This document shows, piece after piece, positions 1,017 to 43,810 of a stretch of 64,000 nucleotides of DNA (position 1 is its first letter; every line of letters begins with the position of its first letter). The stretch is from Thiotrichaceae bacterium (GTDB taxonomy: Bacteria; Pseudomonadota; Gammaproteobacteria; Thiotrichales; Thiotrichaceae). A model generated the notes under the pieces. That model did no database searches. It saw only the letters and a list, made by a program, of their open reading frames with translations, and had not been told where the DNA came from. The translations under genes and the position numbers were made by a program. Where the stretch lies: contig JALSJN010000075.1 in NCBI GenBank assembly GCA_026989335.1, positions 1 through 64,000 on the forward strand, given 5' to 3'.

Positions 1017-1349
1017 TTATCGAGCTACATGAAGACGCCAAAGCATTTTTTTAGCCCATACTACTTGACGAACATATGTATATTTGCCATCAGCAGATAC
1101 CGTCATTGAGCTTTTTGGACGATGCTTCTGCCACCTGACATGTACTCTACAACTTTTTGATGTCTGACCAGTCATATTGTTCACTGTAATATTACACTGA
1201 TACCATTCACCTCTGATTTTAGATGCTTCCGAACTAGACATCTTCTGAATTGAATCAGGTGAAACAGAAGAAAGAATACTTGGTGCAGCCTGTGCAGTGG
1301 TTGTAGCAAGTACTAACAACGTTGATGCTATAGCTAATTTTAATTTCAT
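1017..1349 (-). CDS. Small secreted protein of unknown function
   Basis: A 110-residue protein with a clear Sec signal peptide (MKLKLAIASTLLVLATTTAQA, cleavage after AQA) and a mature domain of about 88 residues. Two cysteines (YQCN and KSCR) could form a disulfide. A strong AAAGGAG ribosome-binding site precedes the ATG. The protein is basic and has no recognised domain. It is divergent from luxI, and their shared upstream region holds the two lux boxes, so the same operators could act on both genes. Confidence 0.65.
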   Translation of the reverse strand: MKLKLAIASTLLVLATTTAQAAPSILSSVSPDSIQKMSSSEASKIRGEWYQCNITVNNMTGQTSKSCRVHVRWQKHRPKSSMTVSADGKYTYVRQVVWAKKMLWRLHVAR

Positions 1350-1530: not shown

Positions 1531-1593
1531 ATTTTATTCATAAAAAACAATTATCGTGCCCTTTCTTTTACATGAAAGAAAGGAGTAGAGATA

Positions 1594-2208
1594 ATGTCAA
1601 TTAATATTATTAACGCAAAAAGAAACAAGATGCCTGCATCATTACTTCGAGGAATGTATCATTTACGGCATAAAGTTTTTAATAAAAGGTTACATTGGGA
1701 AGTTCAGGACTTTGGTGATCTGGAAATTGATCAGTTTGATTACCGAAACCCTGATTATATTATTGCAAAAGACTTAACAGAAAAAATTATAGGTTGCTGG
1801 AGATTAATACCAACAGTTGAAAACTATATGTTAGAAGAAGTCTTTAATTTTATGTTAGGCAATTATCCGTTGCCAAAAGATGAAACGATATGGGAGCTAA
1901 GTCGTTTTGCAGTGATAGATAAAAAGCCAGTTGGACATACTTTGTCGGAAGCAACTGTTTTTATGATAAAAGAAATTATGGACTTTGCTTTAAAGAAAAA
2001 CATATCAGGTTACTTGGCAGTAACAAGTGTTGGAGTAGAACGCTTAATGAAATCTGCGGGTATCCCAATGGAACGTATCGGTAATAAAAAACCATTGATG
2101 ATTGGAAATGTAAAATCCGTATTATGCCTAATTCCAGTAAACGAACAGTTTATTGATACCACTAATAGCTTGATACAGGAATATGTATCTTTAGACGTTG
2201 CAGCTTAA
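1594..2208 (+). CDS. luxI: Acyl-homoserine-lactone synthase (LuxI family)
   Basis: A 204-residue cytoplasmic enzyme that makes N-acyl-homoserine lactones from S-adenosylmethionine and an acyl carrier. All family-invariant residues are in place: R25, F29, W35, D46, D49, R70, E101 and R104 (motifs LRHKVFNKRLHWEV, GCWRLIPT, WELSRFAV). Length is typical. A good AAAGGAG site lies 8 bases before the ATG, and two lux boxes lie upstream. It converges on a luxR gene; their stop codons overlap in a shared TTAA. The synthase is intact while the adjacent receptor is frameshifted. The acyl chain cannot be predicted from sequence. Confidence 0.92.
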   Translation: MSINIINAKRNKMPASLLRGMYHLRHKVFNKRLHWEVQDFGDLEIDQFDYRNPDYIIAKDLTEKIIGCWRLIPTVENYMLEEVFNFMLGNYPLPKDETIWELSRFAVIDKKPVGHTLSEATVFMIKEIMDFALKKNISGYLAVTSVGVERLMKSAGIPMERIGNKKPLMIGNVKSVLCLIPVNEQFIDTTNSLIQEYVSLDVAA

Positions 2209-2940
2209 GCTTTTATTTCACCGTTAAGTATCGCTATTATTGCTGCATTGGTACGGGATGTAGTATCCATTTTGGATGCTGCATTTTTTATATGAAACAC
2301 GATTGTCCGCTCTGATAAGCCAATAATTCTGGATATTTCCCAAGAAGTTTTACCTGTGGTTACCTGTGGCAACCCATTTTAAGCATTCTTTCTCACGTTC
2401 AGTAAGTGTTATTGTATTTTCTTTTTTGCCTTTTAAACTAACAACATCGAAAAGCGTAGAACCTAGTATCTGTAAGGAAAATAAATTTTCTGGATTACTA
2501 AATGCCGATTTTTGATAATCTTCTGAGGTACTAACAGCTAAAGCGCCATATTCTCCTGTGTCCGAGTGAAAAGGAAATGATATGCCAGATTTAACACCAA
2601 AATCAGCTGCTTCAGAAAAGATTTGCTTATTTATTTGTGATATTTCTTTATTTTGTGTTGGCCAGATAATGGGCGTGTTTTTTACTTTGCAATGAGCAAC
2701 GGTTAAATCTTTATCGAAATAGTTTTTATCATGATAACGTTTTTGCCATGAACTTGGGTATTCAGTTAATATGAAAATGTCAGGACAAGGCTTTAAATCA
2801 TGGTATAACGCAGAACCAAATAAGAAATTTTCGGCACCATATCGAGCACTATGTTTTTTAATAGTAGACATAAGTTCTTTATCGGATGATGAGTTACTTA
2901 TATCTGTAGTAATCTCTAAAATTATATCTTCTATTTTCAT
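2205..2940 (-). pseudogene. luxR: LuxR-family quorum-sensing regulator disrupted by a 10-bp tandem duplication
   Basis: The ORF gives 196 residues: an autoinducer-binding domain with family residues W65, Y69, D78 and W93, then the start of the HTH (LTEREKECLKWVATG), then a premature stop. An exact 10-bp direct repeat (TTACCTGTGG twice, 2350-2369) lies at that point. Removing one copy restores a continuous 241-residue frame that ends in a full LuxR HTH (VATGKTSWEISRIIGLSERT, then IKNAASKMDTTSR) and stops at 2205-2207, overlapping the luxI stop. As sequenced, the product keeps the ligand domain but lacks DNA binding. The lesion could be recent, reversible by slippage, or an assembly artefact. 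Confidence 0.88.
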
Positions 2941-3085
2941 TAATCACACCTAAATCTATAAGTTCTATTAGAACATTCTATCATTTTTTGTAGTTTATCA
3001 AAATAATTTATATGCTTCTTGATCCTACAATTAAATCATATCGTATTCAGGGACATCCATCCAAAAGCGGTATAAAAACAGCGAT

Positions 3086-24918: not shown

Positions 24919-25619
24919 TGAGTGTTAACTTAGATGTATTGCAAGCTCATTTAGAGTCGGCGTTGGCTGGGAAAATTGAATCTTCGGTGATTGCTCTGGG
25001 TGAATTGACTGTTGAGGTTGCTTCGCAAAATTGGCTCGAAGTCGCTGCATTTTTGCGCGATGACTCTGTGACTTCCTTTGAGCAGCTGATAGATGTTTGT
25101 GGTGTTGATTATTTAGCCTACGGTGAGTCTGAATGGGATAACAGCGGTAGCGGTTTTTCCCGTGGTGTGAAACGTGAATTTTCTTTTGATGGCTCGGATG
25201 ATCCAGCTGAAGCGGTTGAGTTTGAGGGTAAGCGTTTTGCTGTGGTGATTCATTTGTTATCTATAAAGCACAATCACCGCATCCGTATTAAGTCTTACTG
25301 TGATGATAATGAATTTCCAGTGATGGATTCGGTGGAAGGCATTTGGAATGTGGCGAACTGGTTTGAGCGTGAGGCTTTCGACTTGTTTGGTATCATGTTT
25401 AATAATCACCCTGATTTACGCAGAATTTTGACTGATTATGGTTTTGTGGGGCATCCCTTTAGAAAAGATTTCCCGCTTATTGGGCATGTGGATATGCGTT
25501 ATGATGAAGAGTTAAAGCGTGTGGTTTATGAGCCTGTTTCTATTGAAGATCGAACGTTGGTGCCACGTGTTATACGTACCGATCAACGTTTTTCCCCAGC
25601 AGTTGAGGGAAATGACTAA
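24918..25619 (+). CDS. nuoC: NADH-quinone oxidoreductase subunit C
   Basis: A 233-residue 30-kDa-type peripheral-arm subunit that helps assemble the quinone module. The signature [33 protein letters not shown] is present. It is separate from nuoD, unlike the fused nuoCD of enterobacteria. It overlaps neighbours by one base at both ends. The C-terminus is acidic. Confidence 0.95.
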
Positions 25620-26872
25620 TGCCTGAGATTAAGAATTTCACGTTAAACTTCGGGCCTGCTCATCCTGCGGCGCATGGTGTATTGCGACTCATTCTTGAAA
25701 TGGATGGCGAGGTGATTCAACGTGCTGACCCGCATATTGGCTTATTGCACCGTGGTACTGAAAAACTCGCTGAAAGCAAACCCTATAATCAGAGTATTGG
25801 TTATATGGATCGGCTCGATTACGTTTCTATGATGTGTAATGAGCATGGCTATGTGTTGGCGCTTGAAAAAATGCTGGGTATCGAAGCACCGATTCGCGCG
25901 CAATACATCCGTACCATGTTCGATGAAATTACCCGAATTTTAAATCACCTATTATGGATTGGCGCACATGGCTTAGATGTTGGTGCGATGACCATGTTTT
26001 TGTATGCGTTTCGTGAGCGCGAAGATTTAATGGATGTTTACGAGGCGGTTTCAGGCGCACGTTTACATGCGACCTATTATCGTCCGGGCGGAGTTTATCG
26101 TGATTTACCCGATACTATGCCGCTGCATGAAAAATCGAAATGGTATAGCGATGCCGATATTAGGCGCTTAAATAAAAATCGTGGCGGCAGTGTTTTAGAT
26201 TTTATCGAAGATTTCACTCAACGCTTCCCGCATTATGTGGATGAATACGAAACACTATTAACCGATAATCGTATTTGGAAACAGCGCTTGGTTGATATTG
26301 GTATCGTATCACCAGAGCGCGCTTTGCAACTGGGTTTAACCGGTGCGATGTTACGTGGTTCAGGTATTGAATGGGATTTGCGCAAAAAGCAACCTTATGC
26401 GATGTATGATCAACTTGAATTTGATATTCCAGTTGGTACAAATGGCGATAGCTATGACCGTTACTTAGTGCGCATGGAAGAGATGCGCCAATCGAATAAA
26501 ATCATCAAACAATGTGTTGATTGGTTGCGTGTTAATCCTGGTCCAGTCATGCATGAAGATCATAAAATTACCCAGCCAAAACGCGAAGCAATGAAAGGTG
26601 ATATGGAAGCCTTAATTCATCACTTTAAATTAGCGACAGAAGGTTATTGTTTGCCAGAAGGTGAAGCCTATGCAGCGATTGAGCATCCTAAAGGTGAGTT
26701 TGGTTGTTATATTGTTTCGGATGGTGCTAATAAACCTTATCGTTTAAAAGTGCGTGCCCCAGGTTTTGCGCATATGTCAGCGATGGATGAACTCACTAAG
26801 GGTCATATGTTGGCGGATGTAGTGACGATTATTGGTACGATGGATATTGTATTTGGTGAGGTGGACCGCTAA
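25619..26872 (+). CDS. nuoD: NADH-quinone oxidoreductase subunit D
   Basis: A 417-residue 49-kDa-type subunit forming, with NuoB, the quinone-reduction site. Landmarks are [34 protein letters not shown], and the C-terminal FGEVDR. Length is typical for unfused NuoD. Translationally coupled to nuoC and nuoE by TAATG overlaps. Confidence 0.96.
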
Positions 26873-27474
26873 TGTTTGTTGATAATAATTCCTTAGAAAG
26901 TGTCACAATACTAACTGAACATGAGCTTCATGAGATTGATGGTTGGTTAAAGCGTTTTCCAGAAGATCAAAGGCAATCGGCGTTATTAGGTGCATTACGT
27001 GCGGTGATGCATGAAGATCATTATCTTTCTTATGAAAAAATGGATGCAGTGGCTGAATATTTAGGTATTCCAAAAGTTGCCGTTTATGAAGTAGCTAGCT
27101 TTTATTCTATGTACGAAATGGATGAAAAAGCAGCAGGTAAAAATACCATTGCGGTATGTACCAACATTTCCTGTATGTTAAATGGCTCAGATAAAATTGT
27201 TAAGCATATCGAAAGTAAGCTAGGTATCAAACATGGTGAAACAACGCCTGATGGTGAGTTTTACTTTAAAATTGAAGAAGAATGTTTGGCTGCTTGTTGT
27301 GGTGCGCCGATGATGCAGTTAAATCATGTTTATCATGAACATTTAACCCTTAGTAAAGTTGATGAACTGCTTGATACCTGCCTCCCGAAACGTTCGGATG
27401 ATGATGTCGGTGAATCTGAATCTGCTGCTGTTAAATCCACTGATAGCATTGTTGATAAAAAAGGAGGCAAATAA
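26872..27474 (+). CDS. nuoE: NADH-quinone oxidoreductase subunit E
   Basis: A 200-residue 24-kDa-type subunit carrying the off-pathway [2Fe-2S] cluster N1a. Ligands lie in CTNISC and [11 protein letters not shown] helical thioredoxin-like fold is expected. It carries a charged tail of about 30 residues ([20 protein letters not shown]) beyond the E. coli length; the tail has no recognised role. Confidence 0.94.
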
Positions 27475-28754
27475 TGGTTGATCAAGTTTGCTTCATTACA
27501 AAAAAGTATGGAGATGACTCTCATACCTTAGAAAATTACCTCAAAGAAGGTGGTTACGAATCATGGAAAAAGATTCTTAAAGACGATATCGAAGTTGACG
27601 ATATTATTGATGAGGTGAAAGAATCTGGTTTACGTGGTCGTGGTGGGGCTGGTTTCCCGACTGGTTTAAAGTGGAGCTTTATGCCACGCAATATGCCAGG
27701 TCAAAAATACATCGTGTGTAACTCAGATGAGTCAGAACCGGGTACGTGTAAAGATCGCGATATATTACGTTTTAATCCACATGCCTTAGTCGAAGGTATG
27801 GCCATTGCGGGCTATTGTATTGGCGCAACCGTAGGTTATAACTACATGCGTGGCGAGTTTATGGATGAACCTTCCATTCGTTTTGAACAAGCGGTTAAAG
27901 AAGCCTACGAAGCAGGGCTGTTAGGTAAAGATATTTTAGGCAGTGGTGTTGATTTTGATCTGCACGGCGCCCTGGGTGCGGGCGCTTATATTTGTGGTGA
28001 GGAAACTGCGCTACTGGAGTCACTTGAAGGTAAGATGGGTCAGCCGCGTTTTAAGCCTCCTTTTCCTGCTAGCTTTGGTTTGTATGGTCGTCCGACCACC
28101 ATTAACAATACCGAGACTTTATCGTCTATCCCGAAAATATTATCAGGTGGTGGAGAGTGGTTTAAAGATATGGGTGTTGAAGGTTCTGGCGGAGAAAAGC
28201 TATTCTCAATGTCGGGTCACTTAAATAACCCCGGTAACTTTGAAGTGCCGATGGGAATCCCTTTTAAAGACTTATTAGCGTTAGCAGGTGGTGTGAAAGA
28301 CGGTAATAAACTCAAAGCCGTAATTCCTGGTGGCTCGTCTGTACCTGTTTTAACCGGTGATCAAATGATGGCATTGACGATGGATTACGATACCATCGCA
28401 AAAGCAGGCTCTTATCTAGGTTCTGGGGCAGTCATCGTTATGGATGAAACCACCGATATGGTCAAAGTGTTACAGCGAATTTCTCAATTTTACTTTTCTG
28501 AATCCTGTGGGCAATGTACGCCTTGTCGCGAAGGTACGGGTTGGTTGTATCGTTTGGTGACTCGTATTGTAGAAGGTAAAGGAACGCTCGAAGATATTGA
28601 TCGCTTAGAAGATGTTGCGCATAAAATAGAAGGCAGAACCATTTGTGCCTTGGGTGAAGCAGCCGCCATGCCTGTGTGGAGCTTTGTAGAAAACTTTAGA
28701 GAAGAATTTGTTCATTATGTCGAACACGGTTACTCAATGGTAGGTGCGAAATGA
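27474..28754 (+). CDS. nuoF: NADH-quinone oxidoreductase subunit F
   Basis: A 426-residue NADH-binding flavoprotein subunit with FMN and [4Fe-4S] N3. Seen: NADH/FMN glycine-rich loop [42 protein letters not shown], and the cluster motif [12 protein letters not shown] with a distal Cys in TICALG. GGAGG in the end of nuoE serves as its ribosome-binding site. Confidence 0.96.
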
Positions 28755-31150
28755 GTGACAAGATTGAAACTATAAAAATCACGGTTGATGGCAAAGAGCT
28801 AGAAGCTAAACCAGGTGCAATGTTAATTGAGGTGACGGATCAAGTCGGGATTCATATTCCACGCTTTTGTTACCATAAAAAGCTGACTGTTTCTGCCAAT
28901 TGTCGGATGTGTTTGGTTGAAGTTGAAAAAGCGCCTAAGCCGATGCCCGCTTGTGCAACCCCTGTAACAGAAGGAATGACAGTCTGGACGCGTTCTGAAA
29001 AAGCACTTACTGCACAAAAAGACACCATGGAGTTTTTGTTAATTAATCATCCGCTAGATTGCCCTATCTGTGATCAAGGTGGTGAGTGTGAATTGCAAGA
29101 TTTGTCGGTGGCATTTGGTGGCTCATCGTCTAATTATCATGAAGTCAAACGCGTCGTAGTTGATAAAAATATTGGCGAATTGGTTTCTACAGAGCTTACT
29201 CGTTGTATTCAATGTATGCGCTGTGTGCGCTTTGGTGAAGAAATAGCAGGGATGCGTGAGCTTGGAGCAATGGGGCGGGGTGATCGAGTTGAAATCGGTA
29301 CTTTTGTGCAGAAAAGCCTTTCTTCGGAGCTGTCAGGAAATATTATTGATATTTGTCCTGTGGGTGCGCTTACAGCAAAGCCCTCACGCTTTACATCGCG
29401 TGCGTGGGAAATGATGCAAACCGCTGCAGTCGCTTCACACGATTGTGTTGGCTCGAATACTCATATTCATACTTTCAAGAAAAAACTAGTGCGCGTTATT
29501 GCGGGTGATAATGAAGCTATTAATGAATGCTGGATTTCTGATAGAGACCGTTTTAGTTATCAAGGAATAGAGTCCAAAGATCGTGCAGAAGTACCGATGA
29601 TCAAGAAAGATGGTAACTGGAAGCGAGTGAGTTGGGAAGATGCCCTAAATGCGGTTGCTGAAAAACTGAAGGCTGCTCACCCTGATAATATTGGTGTGTT
29701 AGCGTCGCCCAGAGCAACGATTGAAGAGCTTTATCTGTTGCAAAAATCCATGCGTGCTATTGGTGTGAACAGTCTTGATCACCGTTTACGTCAAACTGAT
29801 TTCAATCAGCAAGAAAGCATGGGTTTATTCCCTTGGCTGGGAATGTCGTTAAGTGATATCGAGGCACAAGATGCAATGTTGTTAGTGGGCTCAAATGTTC
29901 GTAAAGAACAGCCAATGATTAATCACCGAATTCGCAATGCGGTTAACAATCAAGCTGCCAAAGTGTTTACGGTGAACCCTAGGCATTTAGAGTTTAACTA
30001 CCCTGTTGAATTACAGTTTGTTAGTGACCCTTTGGAAATGGTGAATACCTTAGCAGGCGTTGCAGCAGCAAGTTTTAAAATTAGCAAAGCAACAATTCCT
30101 GCAGGATTGAAAGATTTATTAAATGCCGTTGAGGTAACTGCTGAAAGTAAGTCACTTGCCAAAACGTTAAAAGATGCAGAAAATGCAGTCGTGTTTTTAG
30201 GCAGTATTGCTGTGCAGCATCCGGGCTATTCGACGTTACGCGCCTTATCATCTGTGATTGCCGATAATACTGGGGCGACTTTAGGTTATTTTGCAGAGTC
30301 TGCAAATACCGTTGGCGCGTGGTTAGCAGGTATGGTTCCGCATCGTACCCAAGCTGGTGGCGTGGTTGAAGAAGTAGGTAAAAGTACGGCACAAATGCTT
30401 GATAAAGGCATGAATACTTTTGTACTACTTGATGTTGAACCAAGCTTTGATTGTGATGATGCTGTGTTAGCTAATGAAACAATGAAAGTGGCAGACTGTG
30501 TGATCTCTATTTCGCCTTATCTTAGTGGCTCGATGTTAGAACAAGCCGATATTATTTTGCCCAGTGCGGCTTATACAGAAACATCAGGAACTTTTGTTAA
30601 TGCAGAAGGTGTTTGGCAAAGCTTTAATGCCGCCTCACAAAGCTATGAAGAGGCGCGACCTGCATGGAAAATATTACGCGTATTAGGTAATGTGCTCGGT
30701 CTTGATGGCTTTGATTATGTCTCTTCTAGTGATGTGCGAGATGAGCTGAAGAAAGCTTGCGGTGGCGTTAGTGAGGTTAATAATAGTTTTGAAGTCGTTG
30801 GTATTTATACAACGTTAGATAAGCTGGCGGTTACTAATAATGTACTGCAACGCATAGGTGAAGTGGCGGAATTTTGTGGGGATGCCTTGGTGCGGCGGGC
30901 AGAAGCATTACAAAAAAGTGCACCGCAACAAGATGCGATCCAATTAAATTCGGCGGAAGTCACCCGCATGGGTTTACAAGTATCGCTGGATGAAAATCAA
31001 TTAGTAGATGTAAAGCAGGGTGTTGAAACTGTTTCAATGCCTTTAATTCTCAATGATGCTATTCCCGATGGTTGTGTTTTATTAGCTTCTGGAACAGAAT
31101 CAAGTAGTTTACTTGGTTCAGCATTTGGCTCAGTGGAAATAACAAGTTAA
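28751..31150 (+). CDS. nuoG: NADH-quinone oxidoreductase subunit G
   Basis: A 799-residue 75-kDa-type subunit. The N-terminal ferredoxin-like part holds a [2Fe-2S] cluster ([20 protein letters not shown]), then the His-ligated [4Fe-4S] motif [18 protein letters not shown] and a further site [12 protein letters not shown], then a large molybdopterin-oxidoreductase-like domain that binds no cofactor in complex I. The C-terminal half is less conserved. Starts by ATGA overlap with nuoF. Confidence 0.95.
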
Positions 31151-32211
31151 TGGATAGTGTAGCAACATTTTTGAATGGCTTTTTGCCAGAAGGTTTAACC
31201 ACCTTGATCGTGATTATGATAAAAATAGTCGCTATTCTGTTGCCGTTAATTTTAGCCGTTGCTTACACAACCTTTGCAGAAAGAAAAATTATCGGTTATA
31301 TGCAGGTGCGTATGGGGCCAAATCGTGTCGGGCCCAAAGGTTGGTTGCAACCGATTGCAGATGTTGTAAAGCTGATGTTCAAGGAGATTATATCTCCCAC
31401 CAAAGCCAGTACCGTTGTCTTCTTTATTGCTCCAATGTTGGCATTAGCACCTGCCTTAGCGGTTTGGTCGGTAATTCCATTTTGGGATGGCGGTGTGCTT
31501 GCTGATGTTGATGCAGGGTTGTTATTGATTTTAGCGGTAACCTCGCTGGATGTGTTTGGCATTATTTTGGCGGGTTGGGCTTCCAACTCTAAATATGCAA
31601 TTTTAAGTTCTCTGCGAGTGGGTGCGCAAGTAGTTTCCTACGAAATTGCGATGGGCTTTGCCTTGGTCGGTGTATTGATGGCCGCCGGGAGTATGAATTT
31701 AAGTGAAATTGTACGCGCTCAAGAGGGTGGGATCTTTAGCTGGTTTGCATGGCCGTTATTCGGTTTGCTCGTGGTATTTTTTATCGCCGGTGTAGCTGAG
31801 ACTAACCGTGCGCCTTTTGATGTGGCAGAAGGTGAGTCAGAGATCGTCGCAGGTTTTCATGTTGAATATTCGGGTATGGCATTTGCATTATTTTTCTTAG
31901 CAGAATACGCCAGTATGATTCTGGTTTCTGTGTTAACCGCTTTGTTATTTTTAGGGGGCTGGTTATCACCTTTTGGACATGCTTTAGATGATGTTCCTGT
32001 GTTGGGTTCGGTATTAGGTGATGGTTTTCACTGGTTATTTATAAAATCATTCTTCTTCTTATTTTGTTATTTATGGTTCCGTGCCACATTCCCGCGCTAT
32101 CGCTATGATCAGATTATGCGGCTGGGTTGGAAAATACTCATCCCAGTAACATTGGTTTGGATATTTGCTGAAGGTGTTGCGATTGCATTCGGGTGGAAAC
32201 CATGGCTTTAG
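31150..32211 (+). CDS. nuoH: NADH-quinone oxidoreductase subunit H
   Basis: A 353-residue membrane subunit of about eight helices that connects the quinone tunnel to the proton pumps. Typical segments: [55 protein letters not shown]. Length is usual for the longer bacterial NuoH. Overlaps nuoG by one base. Confidence 0.96.
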
Positions 32212-32221
32212 GATATTGAGT

Positions 32222-32713
32222 ATGATTAGAAATATTAAACATTTTATTAAGTCATTTACCTTGTTTGATTTACTTCAAGGTTTGGGTGTAACGGGTAAGT
32301 ACTTCTTTAAGCGTAAAATTACGATTCAATACCCTGAGCAAAAAACACCCATGTCGCCACGTTTCAGAGGGCATCATGCATTGCGTCGTTACCCTAATGG
32401 GCAAGAGCGTTGTATCGCGTGTAAATTATGTGAGGCGGTTTGCCCAGCGTTAGCGATTGATATTGAATCAGAAGAACGTGCTGATGGAACACGCCGTACC
32501 ACCAAATACGAGATTGATTTTTTCAAATGTATTTATTGCGGCTTTTGTGAAGAAGTGTGCCCTGTTGATGCCATTGTCGAAACCCATATCTTTGAATACC
32601 ATTATGAAGAAAGGGGCGGAAATCTTATTAGCAAACAAGAGTTACTCGCTTTTGGTGATAAACATGAAACTGAAATTGCTAAACGAAAAGCTGCTGATGC
32701 ACCTTATAGATAA
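32222..32713 (+). CDS. nuoI: NADH-quinone oxidoreductase subunit I
   Basis: A 163-residue subunit with two [4Fe-4S] clusters (N6a, N6b): [12 protein letters not shown] and [12 protein letters not shown]. The ATG at 32222 is preferred over the listed upstream start because it gives the family N-terminus ([12 protein letters not shown]) and lies after the nuoH stop. Confidence 0.95.
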
Positions 32714-32729
32714 AAACTAGAGACGACTA

Positions 32730-33326
32730 ATGACCTTTCAACTATTTGTTTTTTACTTTTTTTCTGCTGTGACTTTGCTCTCTGCAGTGGCAGTTGTGAC
32801 GGTGCGTAACCCTGTTTTTTCTGCCTTATTTCTTATTTTAGCCTTTTTTAGTAGCGCTGCGACTTGGGTATTACTAGAAGCTGAGTTCTTAGGTGTGGTT
32901 TTAGTGTTGGTTTATGTCGGTGCAGTGATGGTGCTTTTTTTGTTTGTTATCATGATGTTAGATATTCAAATTGACACGCTACGAGAAGGGTTTATTCGTT
33001 ATCTACCTGTCGGGCTAATAGTGGCAATAGCGATGGCTGTTGAATTGATATTGGTGATGAAGTCAGGGGTATTCAATCGAGATATACCGGAACCCGCGCC
33101 ATTAAGCGTGAGTAATACAGAAGCACTGGGTGAAATCCTTTATACCGAGTATGTTTTTCCGTTTGAAATTGCTGCCGTTATTTTAGTGGTTGCGATCATC
33201 GCTGCTATCGTATTAACCCACCGTCGTCGTACTGGTGTTAAGAAACAGGATCCTTCAAAGCAGGTACGTGTTCGCAGTGAAGACAGAGTACGTCTAGTGA
33301 AAATGAAATCTGAGGAAAGACAATGA
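32730..33326 (+). CDS. nuoJ: NADH-quinone oxidoreductase subunit J
   Basis: A 198-residue membrane subunit with five helices. The conserved TM3 region [18 protein letters not shown] includes the pi-bulge segment important for coupling. A basic C-terminal tail ([20 protein letters not shown]) follows the last helix. Overlaps nuoK by ATGA. Confidence 0.94.
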
Positions 33327-33628
33327 TACCGTTATCCTACTTTCTAGTTGTTAGTGCCTTACTATTTTCAATAGCGGTTGCGGGGATTTTCTTAAACCGT
33401 AAAAATATGATCATTTTGTTGATGTGTATTGAACTAATGCTATTAGCCGTTAATCTTAACTTTATCGCTTTTTCACATTACTTGGGTGATATGGCGGGGC
33501 AAGTTTTTGTTTTCTTTATTTTAACGGTAGCAGCGGCAGAAGCAGCTATTGGCTTGGCAATTTTAGTGACGGTGTTCCGTAATCGACGCACTATTAATGT
33601 CGAGGAACTTGATGAGATGAAGGGTTAA
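33323..33628 (+). CDS. nuoK: NADH-quinone oxidoreductase subunit K
   Basis: A 101-residue subunit of three helices, related to MrpC. Two conserved membrane glutamates appear in [13 protein letters not shown] and [11 protein letters not shown]. Length is exactly typical. Starts within the nuoJ stop; nuoL follows after 2 bp. Confidence 0.95.
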
Positions 33629-33630
33629 GT

Positions 33631-35622
33631 ATGGAAATTATCTATTTACTCATCCCATTTTCTGCTTTGTTGGGTTCTATTATTGCGGGCTTATTCGGTG
33701 CAAAAATTGGTCGTAAGGGTGCGCATAGCGTAACCATTGCAGGTGTAGGAATTGCTTGTATTTTATCGTTTGTTGTTTTGTTTGACGTTTTAGCAGGTAA
33801 TACCTTTTATGGTGATTTATATACATGGGCGCAAATAGGCAATACAAAAATAGCGGTGGGTTTTAAAATAGACCAATTAACCGCGATGATGATGGTTGTG
33901 GTGACGTTTGTATCATTGATGGTACATTTTTACACCATCGGTTATATGGAAGATGATAAGCATAATTGGCCAGAAGATAGTCGTGGTGGGGAAAATAGTT
34001 ACCAACGTTTCTTTGCTTATATTTCTTTATTTACGTTCTCCATGCTAATGCTAGTTATGTCGAATAACTTTATGCAGTTATTCTTCGGCTGGGAAGCTGT
34101 GGGGCTTGTGTCTTATTTGTTAATCGGTTTTTGGTCAACAAGAGACACCGCAATTTTTGCGAATATGAAAGCATTCTTGGTAAACCGTGTCGGTGACTTT
34201 GGTTTCTTACTGGGTATCGCCGCGATTTGGACATACACCGGCTCACTCGATTACCACGAGGTTTTTGCTCGCTTATCAGCGATTGAATTTACAACTGTTT
34301 CCATTATACCTGGGCAAGATTGGTTATTGGTTTCTGTTATTGCTATCTCACTATTTGTCGGCGCAATGGGTAAATCTGCTCAGGTTCCACTGCATGTTTG
34401 GTTGCCTGACTCTATGGAAGGTCCTACGCCAATTTCTGCATTAATTCATGCGGCGACGATGGTAACGGCAGGTATCTTTATGGTATCTAGAATGTCGCCT
34501 ATTTTTGAAATGTCCGATACTGCTCTGAGTATGATTTTAATTATTGGTGCGACCACAGCATTTTTTATGGGTTTGATCGGGGTGGTGCAAAACGATATAA
34601 AAAAGGTAGTCGCCTATTCGACCTTGTCGCAATTAGGTTATATGACCGTAGCCTTAGGAGCGTCGGCATACAGCGCGGCAGTGTTTCATTTAATGACGCA
34701 TGCATTCTTTAAGGCATTATTATTTTTGGCAGCGGGTTCGGTGATTATTGCGATGCACCATGAACAAGACATTCGTAAAATGGGTGGCTTGAAAAAGTAC
34801 TTGCCGATAACCTATTGGACCTCATTGATCGGCTCATTGGCTTTGATTGGATTTCCGTTCTTTTCAGGATTTTTCTCAAAAGATTTAATTATCGAGTCGG
34901 TACATGCGTCTGAATTATACGGTGCGCGTTATGCATATTGGATGGTTTTATTGGGGGTGTTTGTTACTGCACTTTATAGTTTCCGAATGTTCTTTTTGGT
35001 CTTCCATGGAGAAGAGCGGATGGATAAACACACCAAAGATCACTTACATGAACCAGGCAAAGTAGTTACGTGGCCGCTAATCGCACTGGCTATTCCTGCA
35101 GTACTTTCAGGATATTTGATTGACCCGATGGTCGTGGGTGATTTCTTCAAAGGAGTACTGCATTTTGATGAGTCACATAAGGCCATTGAAATTATCAAAG
35201 AAGAATATCATGGCATCTTTAGTTTTGTGGGTCATGGATTGATGATGCCACCTTTCTGGTTAGCAATGGGCGGATTAGGCAGCGCATGGTTTATCTATAT
35301 GAAGAAGCCTTTAATCGCACAGTGGGGGTATGACAAGCTTCGCCCGATTCATACCTTATTAGATAAAAAATACTTTGCCGATGAATTTAATATGGCAGTA
35401 TTTGCAGGTGGTGCTTTAGCCTTGGGCAAAGGTTTATTGGCAGTAGGAGACCGTTTCCTTATCGATGGCTTAATGGTTAATGGCTCGGCAAAACTGACAG
35501 GCTGGTTTGCATCGGTATTCCGGCATGTGCAAACAGGTTATTTATATCATTATGCCTTTTCAATTATTGTCGGTGTTTTAGCAATAATGACTTGGTTAGT
35601 CTTTGGCATGGGGCGCATTTAG
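33631..35622 (+). CDS. nuoL: NADH-quinone oxidoreductase subunit L
   Basis: A 663-residue antiporter-like proton-pumping subunit at the distal end of the membrane arm. Core motifs: FFGWEAVGLVSYLLIGFW, GKSAQVPLHVWLPDSMEGPTP, IHAATMVTAGIF, and HAFFKALLFLAAGS. The long C-terminal part should form the lateral helix. Length is usual. Confidence 0.96.
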   Translation: MEIIYLLIPFSALLGSIIAGLFGAKIGRKGAHSVTIAGVGIACILSFVVLFDVLAGNTFYGDLYTWAQIGNTKIAVGFKIDQLTAMMMVVVTFVSLMVHFYTIGYMEDDKHNWPEDSRGGENSYQRFFAYISLFTFSMLMLVMSNNFMQLFFGWEAVGLVSYLLIGFWSTRDTAIFANMKAFLVNRVGDFGFLLGIAAIWTYTGSLDYHEVFARLSAIEFTTVSIIPGQDWLLVSVIAISLFVGAMGKSAQVPLHVWLPDSMEGPTPISALIHAATMVTAGIFMVSRMSPIFEMSDTALSMILIIGATTAFFMGLIGVVQNDIKKVVAYSTLSQLGYMTVALGASAYSAAVFHLMTHAFFKALLFLAAGSVIIAMHHEQDIRKMGGLKKYLPITYWTSLIGSLALIGFPFFSGFFSKDLIIESVHASELYGARYAYWMVLLGVFVTALYSFRMFFLVFHGEERMDKHTKDHLHEPGKVVTWPLIALAIPAVLSGYLIDPMVVGDFFKGVLHFDESHKAIEIIKEEYHGIFSFVGHGLMMPPFWLAMGGLGSAWFIYMKKPLIAQWGYDKLRPIHTLLDKKYFADEFNMAVFAGGALALGKGLLAVGDRFLIDGLMVNGSAKLTGWFASVFRHVQTGYLYHYAFSIIVGVLAIMTWLVFGMGRI

Positions 35623-35623
35623 T

Positions 35624-37135
35624 ATGTTTGATGGTTACTTGTTAAGTGTCTTGATTTGGCTGCCAATACTCGGCGGTATCTTAACTCTTTTTGCGGGCGA
35701 TAAAGTCGCAGCTCGCCCAGTAGCATTAGTGGTCAGCGTACTTACTTTTGCAATTAGCCTACTGCTATGGACGGGCTTTAATGCTGAAGGGTATCAATTA
35801 CAGTTTGTCGAACTAATTCCGTGGATTGAAACCTTCAAGATAAATTACAGTTTGGGTGTTGATGGGATATCAATGCCGCTCATCCTATTGAATACTTTTA
35901 TCACGGTATTGATTGTTCTAGCAGGTTGGGAAGTTATTCAGAAAAAACCGTCACAATATATGGCAGCCTTCTTAATTATGGAAGGTATTATTAATGGCGT
36001 ATTTGCAGCTCAGGATGCCATGCTGTTTTATGTGTTTTTTGAAGCAATGCTAATTCCAATGTTTATTGTGATTGGTATTTGGGGTGGCGATAACCGTATT
36101 TACGCGACCATTAAGTTCTTTCTATATACCTTCTTCGGCTCGGTATTTATGTTGGTTAGCTTAATTTACATGTACACACAGGCAGGTAGTTTTGCGATAG
36201 CTGATTTGCATAATGTAAAGTTAGGGCTAACGCCGCAAATTTTAATCTTTTTATCATTCTTAATCGCCTTTGGTGTAAAGGTGCCGATGTGGCCAGTCCA
36301 TACATGGTTACCCGATGCTCACGTTCAAGCGCCTACGGGCGGCTCGGTAATTTTGGCAGCGGTTATGCTTAAAATTGGTGGCTATGGCTTTTTACGATTT
36401 TCGTTGCCAATGGTGCCAGATGCTTCAGCAGAGCTAGCTTGGCTTGTGATTTTTATGTCACTAACTGCTGTAGTTTACATTGGGTTTATAGCTTTGGTTC
36501 AAAGTGATATGAAAAAGTTGGTGGCGTATTCATCCATTGCTCATATGGGTTTTGTAACGTTAGGCTTCTTTATTTTATACCCTATATTGAAAAATACTGG
36601 TAGTACCGAAGGCTCATTAATGGGCTTGCAAGGGGGGATGTTGCAGATGATATCGCATGGTTTTATCTCCGGTGCGATGTTCCTAGCTATTGGTGTTTTA
36701 TATGATCGTATGCACACCCGTGAGATTTCTGCTTACGGTGGTGTTGCAAACCGAATGCCTTGGTTTGCGGGTTTCTTTGTGCTCTTTGCCATGGCGAATA
36801 CGGGTTTACCAGGTACCTCAGGTTTTGTTGGTGAGTTCATGGTTATTCTTGCCAGCTTTAAAGCTAATTTCTGGATTGCTTTTTTAAGTGCGACAACCTT
36901 AATAGTGGGAGCAGCTTATACTTTATGGTTAGTTAAACGTGTCATCTTTGGTGCTGTTACGAATGATCAGGTATCTGAACTCACCGATATAAACAAGCGT
37001 GAAACGTTTATATTAAGCGTATTAGCCGTCTTTGTATTGTTACTAGGGTTATGGCCAGAGCCATTGGTACATGTAATGAATGATTCGCTCGTTCATGTTA
37101 TTGAACAAGCAACAACCAGCAAGTTGGTAAAGTGA
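35624..37135 (+). CDS. nuoM: NADH-quinone oxidoreductase subunit M
   Basis: A 503-residue antiporter-like subunit, homologous to NuoL and NuoN. Seen: the membrane Glu in YVFFEAMLIPMF, KVPMWPVHTWLPDAHVQAPT, and YSSIAHMGF. I use ATG 35624 (MFDGYLLSVLIW), just after the nuoL stop, rather than the listed start inside nuoL. Confidence 0.95.
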   Translation: MFDGYLLSVLIWLPILGGILTLFAGDKVAARPVALVVSVLTFAISLLLWTGFNAEGYQLQFVELIPWIETFKINYSLGVDGISMPLILLNTFITVLIVLAGWEVIQKKPSQYMAAFLIMEGIINGVFAAQDAMLFYVFFEAMLIPMFIVIGIWGGDNRIYATIKFFLYTFFGSVFMLVSLIYMYTQAGSFAIADLHNVKLGLTPQILIFLSFLIAFGVKVPMWPVHTWLPDAHVQAPTGGSVILAAVMLKIGGYGFLRFSLPMVPDASAELAWLVIFMSLTAVVYIGFIALVQSDMKKLVAYSSIAHMGFVTLGFFILYPILKNTGSTEGSLMGLQGGMLQMISHGFISGAMFLAIGVLYDRMHTREISAYGGVANRMPWFAGFFVLFAMANTGLPGTSGFVGEFMVILASFKANFWIAFLSATTLIVGAAYTLWLVKRVIFGAVTNDQVSELTDINKRETFILSVLAVFVLLLGLWPEPLVHVMNDSLVHVIEQATTSKLVK

Positions 37136-37136
37136 T

Positions 37137-38651
37137 ATGCAATTAATTCCAATGGGCTTTGAAGTCCCTAATTTCACCCCCGCTATACCAGAGATATTTT
37201 TATTAGCAGGTGCCTGTTTTGTGTTACTCGCTGATTTATTCATAAGCGATAAAAATCGCTTTATTACCTACTTAATGGCGCAAGTCGTACTCTTAATAAC
37301 AGCAGGTTTAGTTTTAACTAACTTTGGCAGTGCTACTGTTTCTACATTTAGCGATATGTTTGTACTTGACCCAATGGCACAAGTCTTAAAAGTAGCATTG
37401 ATATTGGTTACAGTGGGTGTCTTTGTGTATTCACGTGATTATTTGCGTGATCGTCAAATGTACCGTGGAGAATATTTCACGCTTGGTTTATTTACCGTAT
37501 TGGGCATGATGATCATGGTGTCAGCACAAACCCTATTGCTAATTTACTTAGGCTTAGAGCTACTATCACTTGCAATGTATGCCCTAGTCGCCTTTAGACG
37601 TGATGACGGGCGTGCATCAGAAGCCGCAATGAAATATTTTGTACTCGGTGCTATTGCATCCGGTATGTTGCTGTACGGTATGTCGTTTATTTACGGTATA
37701 ACAGGTAGTTTATACCTTGATCATATCGCAACTTATATGTCATCAAACCCCGTTATGCAAAATGTTGGTTTGTTACTTGGCTTGTCATTTATCATCGTAG
37801 GGCTTGGTTTTAAACTGGGTGCAGTGCCTTTTCATATGTGGGTGCCAGATGTTTATGACGGCGCTCCAACATCGGTGACTATGTTCCTAGGTACGGCACC
37901 AAAAATTGCCGCGTTTGCGATGATTATCCGCTTGTTAGCTGAAGGCTTAGGCGACATGGTGCAAGGTTGGCAACAAATTTTAGCGATTCTCGCGGCGCTC
38001 TCTGTTGTGCTGGGTAACATCATAGCTATTGCCCAAACCAATATAAAACGAATGTTCGCGTACTCAACTATTTCACATATGGGCTTTGTCTTAATGGGGG
38101 TTCTTGCAGGTACGCAAGCAGGCTATGCTGCTTCAATGTTTTATATTATCACCTATGCCATCATCTCAATGGGCGGCTTTGCAGTCATTATTTATTTAAG
38201 CCACAACGCTAAAGAAGCGGATCAATTGGATGATTTAAAAGGCTTAAGCAGTACGCATCCTTGGGTGGCCTTTATGATGATGCTATTTTTATTTGCAATG
38301 GCTGGCGTACCACCAACCGTTGGCTTTTACGCTAAGTTATCGGTGATAACTGTTGTGGTTGATGTGAGTTATACTTGGCTGGCGGTACTGGCCGTGGTGA
38401 CGTCAGTGATTGGTGCTTACTATTATTTACGCGCTATAAAACTGATGTATTTTGATAAGTCCGATGAAAATACAAGTACAGAAACAATTGCTGAAAATAA
38501 TTTGGATGGGGCTAAGCCATCTGTGGCTAACAATAACTCATTAGACTTTACTGTGTTATTAAGCATTAATGGTTTCGCGGTATTACTGCTAGGAATATTG
38601 CCAGGTGGGCTGATGGCGCTTTGCTTGCGTGCAATACAGTCAAGCTTATAA
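37137..38651 (+). CDS. nuoN: NADH-quinone oxidoreductase subunit N
   Basis: A 504-residue antiporter-like subunit that ends the operon. Seen: LGLELLSLAMYALVAFRRDD, KLGAVPFHMWVPDVYDGAPT, YSTISHMGF, and KLSVITVVVDV near the end. A polar insert (DENTSTETIAENNLDGAKPS) precedes the last helix. It begins right after the nuoM stop. Confidence 0.95.
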   Translation: MQLIPMGFEVPNFTPAIPEIFLLAGACFVLLADLFISDKNRFITYLMAQVVLLITAGLVLTNFGSATVSTFSDMFVLDPMAQVLKVALILVTVGVFVYSRDYLRDRQMYRGEYFTLGLFTVLGMMIMVSAQTLLLIYLGLELLSLAMYALVAFRRDDGRASEAAMKYFVLGAIASGMLLYGMSFIYGITGSLYLDHIATYMSSNPVMQNVGLLLGLSFIIVGLGFKLGAVPFHMWVPDVYDGAPTSVTMFLGTAPKIAAFAMIIRLLAEGLGDMVQGWQQILAILAALSVVLGNIIAIAQTNIKRMFAYSTISHMGFVLMGVLAGTQAGYAASMFYIITYAIISMGGFAVIIYLSHNAKEADQLDDLKGLSSTHPWVAFMMMLFLFAMAGVPPTVGFYAKLSVITVVVDVSYTWLAVLAVVTSVIGAYYYLRAIKLMYFDKSDENTSTETIAENNLDGAKPSVANNNSLDFTVLLSINGFAVLLLGILPGGLMALCLRAIQSSL

Positions 38652-41592: not shown

Positions 41593-41632
41593 ATTAAATC
41601 AAATTAAATCAAATTAAATCAAATTAAATCAA
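41593..41632. repeat. Four exact tandem copies of ATTAAATCAA
   Basis: The 10-bp unit is repeated four times without variation (41593, 41603, 41613, 41623). It lies in the 552-bp gap between divergent tgt and the SCP2-like gene, about 20 bp before a candidate promoter. It is prone to slippage, and could tune promoter spacing or bind a protein once per helical turn. Confidence 0.85.
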
Positions 41633-41652
41633 AGGCTTATAAAATAATTGTA

Positions 41653-43644: not shown

Positions 43645-43810
43645 AATAATCCTTACTTGATGCTTGTGATTGAATCTTCTCATGGGTGTAGGCAACGAAC
43701 AAGGGTGCTGTTATTTAAATCATGAAAATAGCAGAAATAACAAACTTACATGCTTGACGAGAATAACTTAGATGCGTATTATTCGCGCTCTGTCATTTAT
43801 GGCAGTACGT

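Follow-up and report, generated by a model that had tools for sequence, protein, structure and literature searches.

The window, i.e. the whole stretch of 64,000 nucleotides that was analysed, derives from the draft genome of a Thiotrichaceae bacterium (86 contigs, 2.46 Mb, 94.9% complete, 4.2% contamination) and carries near its start a luxI gene and, on the opposite strand, a luxR gene. The luxI gene (1594-2208, plus strand) was recognized by its open reading frame, Pfam match and alignment, and encodes a 204-aa acyl-homoserine-lactone (AHL) synthase. Its product matches PF00765 with 111 bits and has, in an alignment of 11 sequences, all of the LuxI invariants (R25, F29, W35, E44, D46, D49, R70, F84, E101 and R104), which identifies it as a LuxI-type AHL synthase and confirms the original prediction of an intact luxI. 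The closest solved structure is that of LasI.

The luxR gene starts at position 2940 on the minus strand and runs down to 2350, where its reading frame is closed after 196 residues (ORF, Pfam match and alignment). The autoinducer-binding domain of the product is complete (PF03472, 91 bits, residues 21-165) and keeps every invariant residue, including the conserved ligand residues; the closest solved structures are those of LasR, QscR and RhlR. Position 79 holds a leucine where most homologs have a nearly invariant proline. Because the two closest relatives also lack the proline (Leu in L179, within DLT, and Ile in L180, within DIT), Leu79, the single unusual residue of the ligand pocket, does not reflect decay. 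The remainder of the gene lies in a shifted frame (2205-2366, minus strand; Pfam match and alignment) that encodes an intact LuxR-type helix-turn-helix (HTH) domain: the PF00196 match at 2232-2366 scores 47 bits, is free of stops, retains seven of seven invariant residues (G, K, W, I, E, T, H) and is followed by the stop codon TAA at 2205-2207. The two domains that characterize a LuxR-type regulator are thus both present, but in different frames.

The tandem duplication within luxR

The frames are separated by an exact tandem duplication of TTACCTGTGG (2350-2369, no strand assigned; sequence inspection and duplication survey), with copies at 2350-2359 and 2360-2369; the copy number is exactly two, without a partial third copy. 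The pair, its position and its out-of-frame effect on luxR were all predicted correctly, as was the one-copy frame of 241 aa, the stop codon of which (TAA, 2205-2207) overlaps that of luxI (TAA, 2206-2208). The prediction erred in placing the stop of the two-copy form before the DNA-binding domain: it lies inside the HTH, the first ~15 residues of which (LTEREKECLKWVATG) are translated, while the recognition helix is absent from the 196-aa product.

To put the duplication in context we surveyed 717,585 bases of the source genome (the window and 40 further stretches). Three exact 10-bp tandem duplications were observed, against ~0.33 expected under a second-order Markov model, the latter being a rough figure from three simulated replicates. 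The site in luxR has 191 open codons upstream, an in-frame stop within 6 codons and a shifted frame that is open for 51 codons, and it is the only frame-breaking non-triplet tandem duplication of its kind (unit of at least 8) in the 718 kb sampled. Given the excess over expectation and the absence of a second frame-breaking case in that sample, the duplication is real in the assembled sequence, and isolated. The exact junction sequence was absent from the viral contigs searched. Apart from this pair, the window has a single exact 10-bp tandem array, which is intergenic (ATTAAATCAA, 4.1 copies, 41593-41633).

That the organism itself carries a single copy and an intact luxR, the extra copy having been introduced by an unmerged 10-base join of contig ends or a graph bubble, is an explanation that we regard as unlikely, though as a serious rival. 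The draft state of the genome, with the contig number, completeness and contamination given above, is compatible with such an error, as are the wholly undecayed HTH and the intact genes of the relatives. Nevertheless, the site is located inside a 136-kb contig without a run of N, the long core-gene frames in its surroundings are open (e.g. the nuo genes, 25619-38651) and the 718 kb contain no second duplication that breaks a frame in this manner, so that the error would not be a systematic one.

A full-length protein might also be obtained from the two-copy gene by translational recoding, i.e. by a +1 shift at a rare AGG codon just before the stop (AGG UAA A) that would yield some LuxR with a short insertion. 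The HTH frame is indeed +1 relative to the upstream frame at that point, and AGG is among the two rarest arginine codons of the genome (2.4 per 1000). Yet a conserved recoding signal is missing from the site, luxR is not frameshifted in the closest relatives and the inserted residues would fall within the HTH domain, so that we consider recoding extremely unlikely.

The upstream region of luxI

Three lux-box-like palindromes with a CTGT..ACAG core (1466-1483, 1482-1499 and 1512-1529) and a weaker one (1497-1514) are found upstream of luxI by consensus and symmetry (1466-1529, no strand assigned). The whole window has four 18-base palindromes with this core, and three of them belong to this cluster, which ends ~65 bp before luxI starts; no better match to the palindrome consensus was found in the whole genome. 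From their symmetry and position the palindromes are probable LuxR operators of luxI. They overlap, at a spacing of 15-16 bp, and are flanked on one side by luxI and on the other by a divergently oriented ORF of 110 aa (1017-1349, minus strand), which apparently has a signal peptide and matches no Pfam family; this ORF may be a quorum target. Two other sites with the operator pattern, at 43789 upstream of tRNA-Pro and at 125956 upstream of a shikimate-kinase-like ORF, were discarded as members of a regulon, as they have three mismatches and are probably due to chance.

In the luxI leader, a predicted hairpin spans both the start codon and the ribosome-binding site (1547-1597, plus strand; -18.1 kcal/mol), a fold obtained from a single sequence without covariation, with a z of -4.8 against 200 shuffles. 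In this model the hairpin might gate luxI translation. The three palindromes make it probable that luxI expression depended on LuxR, and together with the strong leader hairpin they suggest that luxI is regulated. For that reason the original statement that the cells still make the signal has to be taken as an assumption. If LuxR activated luxI, its loss would reduce signal production. Regulators of the EsaR type repress their target, and if LuxR acted on luxI in that manner, luxI would be derepressed.

Relatives and genomic setting

The closest relatives of luxR, L180 (40%) and L179 (35%), belong to the same GTDB family but to a different genus. Their receptors have the full length of 244 and 241 aa, respectively, and at the site of the duplication both carry a single-copy, different sequence. 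The original prediction would have been undermined by a two-copy form in all relatives combined with a decayed HTH region; instead, the repeat is absent from L179 and L180 and the luxR sequence downstream of the duplication is without decay. With full-length relatives that lack the repeat and nothing decayed downstream, the event looks recent, or else is an assembly error. A single-protein scan of genome contigs retrieved no close LuxI relatives, and the alignment scan yielded 80 relatives that are at most 47% identical; there is therefore no orthologue near enough to date the event or to allow a dN/dS comparison.

Among 93 surveyed luxI loci, not all of which are independent, 68 have a full LuxR ORF, 23 show no LuxR, one is interrupted by the end of its contig and one (L111) is frameshifted. 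In the latter (L111:1716-2451), from the metagenome-assembled genome of an uncultured betaproteobacterium, the luxR beside luxI is split between two frames.

The draft genome contains a single LuxI and is the only one of 63 genomes of the family with a convincing LuxI, other PF00765 matches scoring at most 24 bits. At least one protein with an AHL-binding domain occurs in 36 of the 63, and these proteins mostly correspond to open frames of 226-305 aa. G001, the closest congener found, has a conserved mobA-mobB locus with neither luxI nor luxR next to it, and luxI was not found in any of the congeners searched; the luxI-luxR pair is therefore accessory in the genus. A phage-type integrase gene (PF00589, 8019-9143) is found near moaA and the lux pair, and a mobile origin of the region is possible. 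A 43-bp stretch upstream of luxR (3043-3085) has an 88% identical copy elsewhere in the source genome (G000, contig C32) and an 86% identical one in G001. It was rejected as the end of a mobile element: there is one diverged copy elsewhere in the genome, and a 20-base pattern derived from the repeat gives a single match.

A second PF03472 protein was not found in the draft genome (94.9% complete), and this bears on the comparison with TrlR of the octopine-type Ti plasmids, a frameshifted TraR without DNA-binding domain that poisons TraR via inactive heterodimers (PMC6341043, PMC3907764). As in TrlR, the frameshift truncates a LuxR-type protein past its signal-binding domain, and the matching architecture and intact N-domain would fit a function of the short protein in titrating the signal or inhibiting a full LuxR. 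TrlR differs in that it accompanies a functional TraR as an additional copy and lost its frame through a 1-bp deletion; the luxR described here is the sole AHL-binding LuxR found in the draft, forms a pair with luxI and owes its defect to a 10-bp duplication. As there is no other PF03472 protein to inhibit, unless it is encoded within the missing ~5% of the genome, and no additional change that points to adaptation to the short form, such a role is very unlikely.

Loss of function versus a reversible switch

We conclude that luxR is probably a spontaneous and recent loss-of-function allele that was created by the 10-bp tandem duplication, a reading based on one assembled sequence of the species. 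Replication slippage probably duplicated the 10 bp. The duplication shifts the frame where the HTH begins and leaves as the only possible product a 196-residue receptor with an AHL-binding domain but without a DNA-binding domain. LuxI could still be made, provided that luxI is expressed, and slippage may remove one of the copies precisely, at a low and incidental rate. We infer that the quorum response has been lost, that the duplication is of recent origin and arose by slippage, and that luxI expression has been altered.

Alleles of this kind have precedents, since the closest known cases already include tandem-duplication loss-of-function alleles as well as the loss of quorum receptors. Spontaneous tandem duplications inactivate Xenorhabdus lrp (PMC6786866) and Vibrio anguillarum hmgA (PMC6787238) in a similar way, with units of 26-410 bp versus 10 bp in luxR. 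Loss-of-function alleles of the receptor are common in other quorum systems, and in the lasR variants of Pseudomonas aeruginosa (e.g. PMC10936206, PMC6629668) a LuxI/LuxR pair has likewise lost its response regulator. The lasR variants come from repeated sampling and control known goods, whereas luxR is represented here by a single sequence.

The original prediction went further and proposed a genetic on/off switch, i.e. an evolved phase variation in which slippage between one and two copies toggles the quorum response at a selected rate. The geometry would suit a switch, as the duplication is exact, tandem and out of frame and the downstream frame has not decayed. Internal tandem duplications give phase variation in the capsule genes of pneumococci (Waite et al. 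2001, 2003, as cited in PMC4022640). There, as in luxR, the frame is shifted by an exact duplication within the ORF, and a precise loss of the duplication is possible in principle. The same source describes phase variation as observed for the capsule genes, while luxR is known from one sequence with no sign of a second allele; a further difference is the short unit in luxR, for which reversion is expected at ~1e-5 or less.

The locus itself does not bear out the switch. It consists of two 10-bp copies only and not of a slippage-prone tract of many units, the repeat has not been kept at the site in L179 or L180, and no similar loci occur in the 718-kb sample. The reversion of a 9-bp insertion is put at ~1e-5 at most in a pneumococcal study that relies on Waite et al. 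(PMC4022640). In Xenorhabdus, tandem duplications of 26-116 bp are present in some of the lrp mutants, and none of the lrp mutants examined for it showed genetic reversion (PMC6786866). Given this low published reversion and its absence in lrp, an exact tandem duplication is by itself weak evidence for a switch, and we judge an evolved phase variation to be highly improbable.

A related proposition is that one-copy and two-copy luxR alleles are both appreciable in the natural population, slippage separating the cells that respond to the signal from those that do not. By analogy with hmgA of V. anguillarum, the duplicated and unduplicated alleles of which coexist in one strain at about 95 to 5 (PMC6787238), a mixed population is possible. 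That both luxR alleles reach appreciable frequencies by this route nevertheless has very little probability in our view. In a single assembly, a two-copy state that can revert has the same appearance as a fixed mutation.

If the locus did have two states, it would constitute a heritable switch of the quorum response, which would bear on the origin and persistence of signal-blind cells. As a plain loss-of-function allele, luxR would add one more case in which the quorum receptor is lost and the synthase is kept, and this in a lineage that seldom has a LuxI at all.
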